Assembly (NCBI GenBank): GCA_000756795.1
Contig: CCSI01000001.1
Coordinates: 124,001 to 188,000 of the forward strand
DNA from: Qipengyuania vulgaris
Lineage (GTDB): Bacteria; Pseudomonadota; Alphaproteobacteria; Sphingomonadales; Sphingomonadaceae
DNA length: 64,000 bases
Direction: 5' to 3'
Below the pieces are notes generated by a model that worked only from the letters and a program-made list of their open reading frames with translations, was not told where the DNA came from and did no database searches. Shown here piece after piece: positions 12,937 through 63,202 of this stretch. Positions within the stretch are counted from its first letter, which is position 1. Each line of letters starts with the position of its first letter. Position numbers and translations under genes: made by a program.

Positions 12937-13686
12937 ATGGCAGGAGACATCCAAGACAATCGCGGGCGCGGCGAAGCGCTCACGAACTTCCCGCGTATCC
13001 ACCCCGAAGGGCGCAAATTCGGGCTTGCCGTACTGGGCCTCTCGCTTGTCACCGCGTGGTTTGCGTGGGAGACGATTGCCTGGCCGCTCTTCTTCCTGTC
13101 GCTGCTGGTATTCGCCTTTTTCCGCGACCCGGAACGCGTCGTGCCGCAGGACGACCGCTTTATCGTCGCGCCTGCCGACGGGCGCGTGGTGCAGATAGCC
13201 GAGGTGGTCCCGCCGCGCGAACTGGTGGTGGACGATGGCAGCGATACAGAAGGTCTTGCGCCCGTGCCGGTGGTCCGCATCTCGATTTATCTCTCGCTGC
13301 TCGACGTGCACATCAACCGCACGCCGATCGGCGGGATGGTTCGCAGGGTCATCTACATCCCCGGCAAGTTCATCAATTCGGACCTCGACAAGGCGAGCGA
13401 GGATAACGAGCGCCAGCACATCCTGATCGAACGTTCGGACGGGCTGAAGGTCGGCATGACCCAGATTGCGGGCCTCGTCGCCCGGCGCATCGTGGCTTTT
13501 GCGAAACCGGGGGACACGCTGGGCGTTGGACAGCGCGTGGGGATGATTCGCTTCGGTAGCCGGGTCGATGTCTACCTGCCTGCCGGGACTGGCTCCTACG
13601 TGATGCTGGGCCAGAAGACCGTAGCGGGCGAAACCGTACTTGCTGCCGTGGGAAGCCAGCCGCTGCTGGAAGGAGTGTCGCAATGA
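12937..13686 (+). CDS. psd: Phosphatidylserine decarboxylase (proenzyme, small type)
   Basis: The 249-residue protein has an N-terminal membrane anchor (LAVLGLSLVTAWFAWETIAWPLFFLSLL split by a tryptophan), then FFRDPERVVPQDDRFIVAPADGRV and the self-cleavage site FGS at Gly207-Ser208, where the pyruvoyl group forms. It converts phosphatidylserine to phosphatidylethanolamine. Its last codons overlap pssA by four bases (ATGA), so substrate maker and user are translationally coupled. Confidence 0.95.
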   Translation: MAGDIQDNRGRGEALTNFPRIHPEGRKFGLAVLGLSLVTAWFAWETIAWPLFFLSLLVFAFFRDPERVVPQDDRFIVAPADGRVVQIAEVVPPRELVVDDGSDTEGLAPVPVVRISIYLSLLDVHINRTPIGGMVRRVIYIPGKFINSDLDKASEDNERQHILIERSDGLKVGMTQIAGLVARRIVAFAKPGDTLGVGQRVGMIRFGSRVDVYLPAGTGSYVMLGQKTVAGETVLAAVGSQPLLEGVSQ

Positions 13687-14525
13687 GCCTGCTGAACGAG
13701 CCGACCCCGCGCGTGGAGGACGAAGAACGTGCGCGCCTCGGGCCCAAGGCCGCGGAAGACGAGAAACCGGTTCTCGGCAGGTCTCGCGGGCTTAGCCTTC
13801 GGGCCATGGCGCCCAATGCGATTACCGCCGCTGCGCTGTGCTCGGGCTTGACCGGCATTCGCTTTGCCATTGGCGAACAATGGGCGGCAGCGGCCGTTGC
13901 GGTTATCGTCGCCGGAATTCTCGACGGGATGGACGGGCGCATCGCGCGCCTGCTCAAGGCCCAGTCGCGGTTCGGGGCCGAGCTCGACAGCCTCGCCGAT
14001 TCATTGAGCTTCGGCACCGCGCCCGCGATCATCATTTACCTCTGGTCGCTTTCGGCAGAGCCGCGCTGGGGCTGGTTCGCCGCGCTCGCGCTTGCAATCT
14101 GCTGTGCCCTACGCCTCGCGCGCTTCAACGCGCAAATCGATACCGAGGACCAGCCGCATAAATCGCTAGGCTTCCTGACGGGTGTTCCGGCTCCGATGGG
14201 GGCGGGGCTCGCCTTCATGCCGTTCTACCTCTGGATGGCGACCGACATCGATCTGTTCCGCGAACCCATCTTTGTGGCGCCCTGGATACTAGCAACTGCA
14301 TTGCTGATGATATCGAGCATGGCGACGCCAAGCTGGACCTCGCTGCGTCCGCGACGGGGTATTCGCTTGTGGGTGCTGGTCTTCGTCGGGCTGTTGTTCG
14401 GCGCGCTGATGCTGGAGCCGTGGTGGACGCTGAGTGTAATCGGTATCGGCTATCTTGCGCTGTTGCCGTTCACGCTGATGCGTTACGCGCGGCTCAAGCG
14501 GCGCGCAGCGTCACCTTCCGAATGA
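13683..14525 (+). CDS. pssA: CDP-diacylglycerol--serine O-phosphatidyltransferase
   Basis: An integral membrane CDP-alcohol phosphatidyltransferase of 280 residues. The diagnostic motif DG-x2-AR-x8-G-x3-D-x3-D is intact in DGMDGRIARLLKAQSRFGAE followed by LDSLAD. Six to eight membrane segments follow. It makes phosphatidylserine from CDP-diacylglycerol and serine; Psd, encoded just upstream, uses the product. The 3' end overlaps the convergent small membrane-protein gene by 32 bases. Confidence 0.95.
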   Translation: MSLLNEPTPRVEDEERARLGPKAAEDEKPVLGRSRGLSLRAMAPNAITAAALCSGLTGIRFAIGEQWAAAAVAVIVAGILDGMDGRIARLLKAQSRFGAELDSLADSLSFGTAPAIIIYLWSLSAEPRWGWFAALALAICCALRLARFNAQIDTEDQPHKSLGFLTGVPAPMGAGLAFMPFYLWMATDIDLFREPIFVAPWILATALLMISSMATPSWTSLRPRRGIRLWVLVFVGLLFGALMLEPWWTLSVIGIGYLALLPFTLMRYARLKRRAASPSE

Positions 14526-14736
14526 CCGGATAGGCGCGCGGCTGGCGACCGAAGCCGTTGCCACTACTTGAAACTACCGACGGCCTCTGGCCGACGCCTG
14601 CCGTCGCATATCCTGCCTTCATCCGCTGCCGGAACAGGTCGAAAGCGGACCACCAACGCAGTCCGCTATCGGCGAGCACGAGAACCGTCGCCACGCTGGC
14701 GAGGGCAAAGGCGGCAATGAGAACAGTTGCGAACAT
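14494..14736 (-). CDS. Small single-pass membrane protein, candidate SOS-controlled gene
   Basis: The 80-residue product begins MFATVLIAAFALASVATVLV, one hydrophobic segment at the very N-terminus, then a basic, disordered-looking tail with QRPSVVSSSGNGFGRQPRAYP. GGAGGAG lies nine bases before ATG 14736; an in-frame ATG nine bases earlier (14745) touches that ribosome site and is less likely. A consensus-like promoter with a LexA-type box lies about 105 bases upstream. No family is recognised. Size and topology are like SOS-induced division inhibitors, for example Caulobacter SidA, but that is inference. It converges with and overlaps pssA. Confidence 0.72.
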   Translation of the reverse strand: MFATVLIAAFALASVATVLVLADSGLRWWSAFDLFRQRMKAGYATAGVGQRPSVVSSSGNGFGRQPRAYPVIRKVTLRAA

Positions 14737-14840
14737 ATCGGCCATCTCCTCCCCGCCTGCCTGTGCACAAAGCTGTTGACAGCCGGGGTAAATTTACGGG
14801 AAAACCCCTAAATCCCGCTGGGCGTTCCAGCGATGAGAAC

Positions 14841-14869
14841 AATGTTCCCGTTTTGTTCTTGGCTGTCAA
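14841..14869 (-). promoter_or_regulatory. Candidate LexA (SOS) box inside a promoter
   Basis: Read on the minus strand: TTGACA (14869-14864), 17 bases, then AACATT (14846-14841). The spacer and -10 region contain GAAC-N7-GAAC (14857-14843), which on the plus strand is GTTC-N7-GTTC, the direct-repeat LexA box of alphaproteobacteria. A LexA dimer here would cover the space between -35 and -10 of the small membrane-protein gene. A single GTTC-N7-GTTC is expected about once or twice by chance in 64 kb, so the placement is the main support. Confidence 0.55.
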
Positions 14870-15090
14870 GCGCTTTTCGCGCCCGGATTCCCTTTTTCTG
14901 CGACGAATTGAGACTGGATTTCTCCGGTAAAGCCCCCTATGTGCGCGCCGTTCGCTACAGAATCGGCCAATTCGGGCCATTTCGAAGGCGGGCAAATCCA
15001 CATGGAAGGCGCTCATACCGGTGCCCGTCGCGGGATACTCCGCACCACGGGTTCCAGCCTTCCAGAGGTACAACCGGAAAGGAAATGACC
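14870..15090 (+). other. Untranslated leader region of rpsB
   Basis: About 220 bases between the candidate SOS promoter and rpsB hold no convincing gene. An in-frame extension of rpsB through this stretch to 14833 exists but lacks family similarity. No promoter for rpsB could be assigned with confidence; TTGACA at 14776 has no matching -10. The stretch may be a leader for S2 autoregulation, which is known in other bacteria but not shown by sequence here. Confidence 0.35.
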
Positions 15091-15840
<750 letters not shown>

Positions 15841-62841: not shown

Positions 62842-62974
62842 TTTGCAGCCCCTCTGTCTCGCGACGATGGATTTTGAGAAACTCAAATATGACGCTTGAG
62901 TATCACAGATTTCGGCGAAAGTCAATGCGATGAGAAGCCTTCCCCGACTCACTTGTTCCTGTCATGTTCTCGCC

Positions 62975-63202
62975 ATGAGCTCCAAGCGCCTCAACAGCCT
63001 CGCAGACTACGCCCGCCACAAATACAAGCTGAGGGTGGACTGCGCGTGTGGGCGTGTCGTCATGCTAGACCCGCACGACTTGCTGGCAGTCATCCTTGCA
63101 CGAGGTTGGAATGCTTATAGCATGGAGGGAATTGGCATGCGGCTGAAGTGTCAGCGTTGCGGAAAGCGGCCTACCCGTATCGGGCCGGGGTTAGGCAGTT
63201 AG
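62975..63202 (+). CDS. Small zinc-ribbon-like protein
   Basis: The 75-residue basic protein has two cysteine pairs, VDCACGRVVMLD and LKCQRCGKRPTRIGPG, spaced as in a zinc ribbon, with SSKRLNSLADYARHKYKL at the N-terminus. Similar small proteins are common in sphingomonads, function unknown. ATG 62975 gives the natural N-terminus; the frame is open to 62930. It is divergent from the island operon and ends overlapping the next convergent gene. Confidence 0.7.
   Translation: MSSKRLNSLADYARHKYKLRVDCACGRVVMLDPHDLLAVILARGWNAYSMEGIGMRLKCQRCGKRPTRIGPGLGS

Follow-up and report, generated by a model that had tools for sequence, protein, structure and literature searches.

A small membrane protein gene of Qipengyuania vulgaris, located between pssA and rpsB on the minus strand, is very probably under LexA/SOS control, as judged from a promoter box that recurs in the gene's relatives. 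The putative switch has been kept in almost every relative examined while the protein behind it changes fast. An initial annotation, made from this stretch of DNA alone, had proposed an SOS-controlled, single-pass membrane protein resembling the division inhibitor SidA; its observation is confirmed, and is stronger than its author could have known from the sequence at hand, and its interpretation is supported. The gene is a strong candidate for a DNA-damage division checkpoint in a large and ecologically important family, and it offers a means of testing whether unrelated small membrane proteins have been recruited repeatedly to the same division target in the response to DNA damage.

Promoter and conservation of the locus

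In the window, by which we mean the whole stretch of 64,000 nucleotides that was analyzed, the small gene occupies 14494..14736 on the minus strand (80 aa plus a stop codon). It converges on pssA (13683..14525, plus strand), which was recognized from its translation and which we take to encode CDP-diacylglycerol-serine O-phosphatidyltransferase; the two genes share an antiparallel 3' overlap of 32 nt (14494..14525), an arrangement common in relatives. On the other side, divergent from the small gene, lies rpsB (15085..15840, plus strand), likewise recognized from its translation and presumably encoding ribosomal protein S2. This gene served as the anchor for genome comparison. Anchor queries started at its second ATG, at 15091, and the query from the window was 100% identical to RpsB of Qipengyuania polymorpha. 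From its named relatives, we take the family of the window to be Sphingomonadaceae in the GTDB sense.

The product was initially given 80 residues. An in-frame ATG at 14745 would lengthen the open reading frame (ORF) to 83 aa, but the 80-aa start at 14736 appears to be the better choice: relatives align there, and a putative ribosome binding site, GGAGGAG (14746..14752, minus strand), fits it at a normal spacing. Beyond a 5' leader of 107 nt (14737..14843, minus strand) stands the box, GAACAAAACGGGAAC, at 14844..14858 on the minus strand (GTTCCCGTTTTGTTC on the plus strand). It has the form GAAC-N7-GAAC, or GTTC-N7-GTTC on the plus strand, just as first described. A -35 element, TTGACA, at 14869-14864 on the minus strand, stands 5 nt ahead of the box and points to the small gene.

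The window holds two matches to GTTC-N7-GTTC where 1.86 are expected, in line with the earlier estimate of one or two per 64 kb, and the genome holds 63, compared with 67 for a reversed control pattern. Since the bare motif is not enriched genomewide, it proves nothing alone, and the argument had to rest on conservation. The box is lifted above chance by that conservation together with the spacing pattern of the -35 element. The combined pattern TTGAC-N4-8-GAAC-N7-GAAC occurs at two places in the genome, ahead of the small gene and ahead of uvrA, and its reversed control occurs at none. TTGAC lies no more than 20 nt ahead of the box at 108 of 114 loci (window included); at five control offsets, 0 to 2 of 114 have it. 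When the intergenic regions of 75 loci, selected by spacing, were aligned, the -35 and the box were more conserved than the stretches adjoining them, and further conserved islands fell on a leader motif and on the stretch adjoining rpsB. We consider the -35 of the small gene convincing. The initial annotation had placed the box inside the spacer between a -35 and a -10; TTGACA bears out the first of these elements, whereas no consensus -10 was seen at this promoter and a sigma-70 scan of both strands of 14450-15100 found no promoter. Filling the promoter spacer, the box probably overlaps the -10.

The genome's own recA (TIGR02012) and lexA (TIGR00498), both identified above cut-off, were the promoters at which a clearly different motif would have counted against the proposal; both are preceded by the same GTTC-N7-GTTC. 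The motif also stands ahead of uvrA, a uvrD/pcrA helicase gene, and rmuC, whose proteins are cut by stretch ends and fall below the full-length family cut-offs, as well as ahead of radA and the genes for two radical-SAM proteins (family matches over cut-off) and for an MmcB-like protein. An ImuA-like ORF with a box was right by eye, yet no family matched it. Among 46 stretches inspected, many boxes lay inside or beside ORFs without an evident repair role and were not promoter-like.

The comparison covered 130 rpsB-anchored family genomes, made up of 30 automatically obtained loci and 100 picked by hand from the listed 196 rpsB matches. In 112 of 128 genomes (own included; loci L175 and L183 are absent from this count and included in the census of 130), GAAC-N7-GAAC was present in the 700 nt upstream of rpsB. 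Among the same 128, other spacers (3 to 6 and 8 to 12 nt) were present in 2 to 12 genomes, and the reversed motif in 5. A full box with a small ORF upstream of rpsB was found in 115 of the 130 (own included): 114 by the census and one more, G078, with its box 1173 nt away and its ORF read from L032. In four genomes the small ORF was kept with one half-site decayed, and in 11 neither box nor ORF lay directly upstream of rpsB. For nine of those 11, the pattern TTGAC-N4-8-GAAC-N7-GAAC located a similar small hydrophobic ORF farther off, seven times at 1.5-7 kb from rpsB, once 161 kb away, and once on another contig. These relocated genes carry the box, which indicates that it travels with the small gene and not with rpsB. 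The same search did not find the gene in G050 and G185, and it gave nothing in G040, a genome outside the 130; overall, the small gene is present in 128 of 131 genomes.

Among the 80 loci from named genomes, the box lay within 700 nt in 74 and was accompanied by a matching ORF in all 80. The retention of the box in close relatives, on which the initial annotation had staked its reading, is thus borne out by both sets of genomes. In genomes of the same order outside the family, the box was found upstream of rpsB in none of 16, three of which offered less than 1500 nt of upstream sequence (733, 429, and 1128 nt).

The census rule for the ORF, a start 25-200 nt after the box start, 50-150 aa, and a hydrophobic N-terminal part, recovered an ORF at 114 of 114 loci versus 1.1 in shuffles, and did so on the opposite strand at 107; this loose rule alone is therefore not specific, and its opposite-strand matches are probably pssA. 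A strict rule, which demanded an ATG and a strongly hydrophobic segment among the first residues, recovered an ORF at 110 of 114 loci; shuffles gave 0.05 and the opposite strand 8.

In 116 of 128 members, the small gene extends 17-137 nt into pssA, or into psd where pssA was not detected. At three loci (L140, L142, and L143) psd itself is the neighbor, with no pssA detected in between, and it lies 14-16 nt from the end of the small gene; both the gene and its Ala-Ala ending persist there.

The protein and its C-terminal end

Purifying selection acts on the small ORF in relatives. With the pssA overlap excluded, dN/dS ranged from 0.09 to 0.62 in all 33 pairs that gave a finite ratio, out of 35 pairs at 50% identity or more that share genomes with one another. 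Changes at codon positions 1, 2, and 3 numbered 636, 463, and 1016 in the 35 pairs, favoring third positions. Divergence is nevertheless fast, with a mean column identity of 25% among 60 members and lengths of 50 to 111 aa (median, 83; 128 members). Of the 119 proteins then known, 60 formed sub-type A1, which contains the window protein and those of Qipengyuania and similar genomes, and 24 formed sub-type A2; the two are related (hhalign probability 86, E 5e-6, 40 columns over the helix). A third set, A3, consists of the window and 34 of the 80 named loci and was picked for an AD motif, so that its invariant A-D columns are partly due to the selection of loci.

Position, box, and ORF shape together recover 128 of 130 genomes, as opposed to eight true members by a single-sequence protein search. 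That search gave matches in 10 of 199 genomes, eight of them real by box and ORF (own included), and we conclude that the family has diverged beyond the reach of ordinary homology search. The two other matches, L036 and L038, were rejected as members by the same check. A search of 190 genomes of the class with the A1 profile gave 12 matches, of which two were family members and 10 were weak matches to other genomes (E 3e-4 to 7e-3); the latter were taken as chance, eight having no box and two having a box downstream of the match. Of the three family genomes in its set, the profile failed to detect G091, which has a box (L195), and absence of the gene outside the family therefore cannot be read from that search.

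A single N-terminal hydrophobic segment was present in 128 of 128 members, starting at a median residue of 4, and a second segment was present in none, in agreement with the one membrane segment first reported. The tail that follows is rich in Ala, Arg, and Pro, with a mean net charge of +6.6 (128 members). By the positive-inside rule, the more positive flank of a membrane helix is cytoplasmic. Net charge was higher after the helix than before it in 92 of 128 members, from which an N-out, C-in topology with a cytoplasmic basic tail is predicted for most of them; the simple charge rule fails for an inside tail in the 14 members where the charge was lower and is undecided in the 22 where it was equal. 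Conservation within A1 falls on a LADSxxRxxxA motif after the helix and on the C terminus.

The absence of a known family, also noted initially, holds at the level of Pfam and NCBIfam, in which the window protein had no match at cut-off. Scans of relatives produced no family shared by two or more members (Pfam for 60 A1 members, NCBIfam for 24 A2 members, and PHROGs for 35 A3 members). Weak matches of the window protein to DUF3774, NPDC1, and SSADH were put down to chance, as were those of relatives (Bestrophin-like at E 5e-4, phage infection protein at E 0.001, an unnamed PHROG at 0.008, and others), since none was common to more than one member.

The last two residues are Ala-Ala in 116 of 128 members, the window protein included, versus 5 of 78 ordinary ORFs of the window genome. 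Part of this signal could be forced by pssA codons, given the 3' overlap with pssA in 116 of the 128 members (a different set of 116, of which 105 end in Ala-Ala). Among the 12 members with no detected overlap, a small set, 11 also end in Ala-Ala, which favors selection acting on the protein; one of these 11, L152, lies too near a stretch end for an overlap to be excluded. One Caulobacter paper describes a C-terminal pair of alanines as a common degron for ClpXP (PMC11034885). The genome's own tmRNA tag, ANDNEALALAA, ends in LAA. Taken together, the Ala-Ala end, the Caulobacter degron, and the tmRNA tag make rapid turnover of the small protein by ClpXP a reasonable inference.

Proposed function and rival readings

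In the model that we propose, DNA damage would lead RecA to trigger self-cleavage of LexA, freeing the promoter box. The freed promoter would yield a small protein that crosses the inner membrane once, probably with the N terminus on the outside and the basic, Ala/Arg/Pro-rich tail inside. The membrane helix would then most likely dock on the late division machinery (FtsW/FtsI/FtsN) and delay septation until LexA returns, whereupon ClpXP would remove the protein by way of its C-terminal Ala-Ala and division would resume. LexA-type control, coding status, the single membrane segment, and the conserved Ala-Ala end are supported by the sequence comparisons above, and we infer the topology, ClpXP turnover, and division target. 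Division inhibition is the likeliest of the functions considered, but in our judgment about as likely as not: any SOS membrane protein would look alike, and the division role accordingly rests on analogy.

The analogy is with several described systems. Late division is blocked by small single-pass SOS proteins in Caulobacter, Bacillus, and Staphylococcus (PMC4211646, PMC13396833, PMC6851548). SidA of Caulobacter crescentus is, like the protein predicted here, a LexA-controlled small inner-membrane protein of an alphaproteobacterium (PMC4211646); SidA, however, has 29 residues, compared with 80 aa in the window and 50-111 in the 128 members, and the long basic tail and Ala-Ala end set the sphingomonad protein apart by description. 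DidA, also of Caulobacter, is similar in size (71 aa) and has a single predicted transmembrane helix, but it is induced independently of SOS by DriD (PMC4211646), whereas the LexA box here predicts SOS control. SosA of Staphylococcus aureus (77 aa; its juxtamembrane stretch is conserved, and its turnover requires the C terminus [PMC6851548]) and YneA of Bacillus subtilis, whose helix binds FtsW (PMC13396833), are likewise SOS induced with one membrane segment. Their C-terminal part is extracellular, with LysM in YneA, whereas the tail here is predicted to lie inside, which counts against the division reading; by description, they also differ in that CtpA is implicated in their turnover, in contrast to the ClpXP-type Ala-Ala end here. 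A Pfam scan of 60 A1 members, taken to an E value of 0.1, brought up no LysM, a feature of YneA and ChiZ. The small protein is assigned to none of SidA, DidA, SosA, YneA, or SulA, and likeness to them is by analogy at best.

SulA of Escherichia coli is also an SOS-induced division inhibitor removed by proteolysis (PMC13396833), but it acts directly on FtsZ and belongs to a separate family. The window protein and 59 relatives had no match to SulA (PF03846). Moreover, SulA was found over cut-off in none of 99 family genomes, with one match just below it (22.4 versus 23.1 bits, in G081), and a division brake of another kind would therefore be expected.

In the open-licence literature on LexA/SOS in sphingomonads or on small membrane division inhibitors, no title or abstract opening among the matches listed concerned this gene, although it may be covered in subscription papers or in regulon databases. 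Among the open-licence matches listed, we also found no paper on how sphingomonads halt division upon DNA damage. The nearest data come from SOS induction in anoxic Sphingopyxis, in which lexA and recA were up; the small gene is not named in the available part of that paper (PMC6472365).

Instead of inhibiting division, the SOS-induced membrane protein might serve the envelope or phospholipid synthesis, or anchor a repair or regulatory factor by its basic tail. We regard such a role as possible but on the unlikely side. LexA control and membrane anchoring leave the target unspecified, and the 3' overlap with pssA persists in 116 of 128 members, including five of the nine relocated genes. The small single-pass SOS proteins named in the cited papers, however, are division inhibitors. 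In addition, three relocated genes (L213, L214, and L221) have no pssA in the flanks fetched, and L140, L142, and L143 have psd as neighbor in its place; with no pssA detected nearby in these six genomes, a pssA-specific role is unlikely.

TisB-type toxins are small membrane proteins that depolarize the membrane and bring about dormancy during SOS. A toxin of this type would likewise be small, hydrophobic, and LexA controlled, and would suit a leader of about 100 nt (median of 101 nt from box end to start codon at 114 loci). We nonetheless find this reading improbable. No toxin family appeared among the Pfam matches of the 60 A1 members, A1 conservation falls after the helix and on the C terminus, and a leader hairpin is not established. 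In the hairpin test, 70.6% of cells were paired versus 68.1% in shuffles; the covariation score of 0.140 was matched by 1 of 500 shuffles, and sliding by one column scored 0.154. RNAalifold predicted no pair in the leaders, and Rfam gave no match in 14300-15300 at E up to 1.

The position of the small gene between rpsB and pssA, overlapping the latter, would also be compatible with a box that serves rpsB, or with an SOS transcript that is antisense to pssA, the ORF being incidental. This is very unlikely and has been largely refuted: the nine genomes with relocated genes have the box with the small gene and no full box upstream of rpsB, three of those nine genes have no pssA nearby, the -35 aims at the small gene at 108 of 114 loci, and dN/dS is below 1. 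That the box is a chance match, as the 1.86 occurrences expected in the window would allow, is next to impossible given its retention upstream of rpsB in 112 of 128 genomes, compared with 2 to 12 for other spacers.

Leader motifs and other boxes in the genome

A second conserved element lies in the leader of the proposed division inhibitor. The motif TTWTCCACA occurred in 42 of 113 leaders of 30-160 nt, where dinucleotide shuffles gave 0.29 (at most 3 in 100), and in 21 of 80 leaders from named genomes, where they gave 0.11, counts whose independence the shuffles overstate because the loci are related by descent; 71 of the 113 leaders lack it. Across the box, in a control stretch toward rpsB, the motif was found in 1 of 100. 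The DnaA box is TTATCCACA. In the clearest loci, again chosen by spacing, the leader consensus contains three DnaA-box-like 9-mers standing 11-12 nt apart, and an alignment designated A4 comprises 32 of 36 motif-bearing leaders. The window copy (14772-14805, minus strand) holds decayed remains of this array. A replication origin at the DnaA-like motifs was considered and rejected, as there was no clear skew switch within the window.

Tentatively, the small protein may be a family-wide checkpoint protein controlled by LexA at its promoter and by DnaA at its leader array, and cleared by ClpXP by way of its Ala-Ala end; we think this combined scheme unlikely as a whole. If true, a single small gene would link DNA damage to replication initiation and to division, and a dual-regulated checkpoint protein would have a topology opposite to that of YneA and SosA.

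The second box of the window, GTTCCTGTCATGTTC at 62955-62969 on the plus strand, lies 5 nt ahead of the ATG of a 75-aa ORF (62975-63202, plus strand) that has zinc-ribbon-like cysteines and a weak, sub-threshold match to a phage zinc-binding protein. A near-identical copy of this box-plus-ORF unit is found elsewhere in the genome (L013), as is a similar one (L004). In another stretch (L078), the box GTTCCCGTAATGTTC at 1026-1040 lies 37 nt ahead of a 131-aa ORF that is glyoxalase-like by eye and is a candidate for an unusual LexA target. A further box, GTTCTCATCTTGTTC (L080, 1040-1054), lies 28 nt ahead of a 329-aa ORF with a weak, sub-threshold winged-helix match, and the neighbor of that ORF on the opposite strand is obgE-like by eye.
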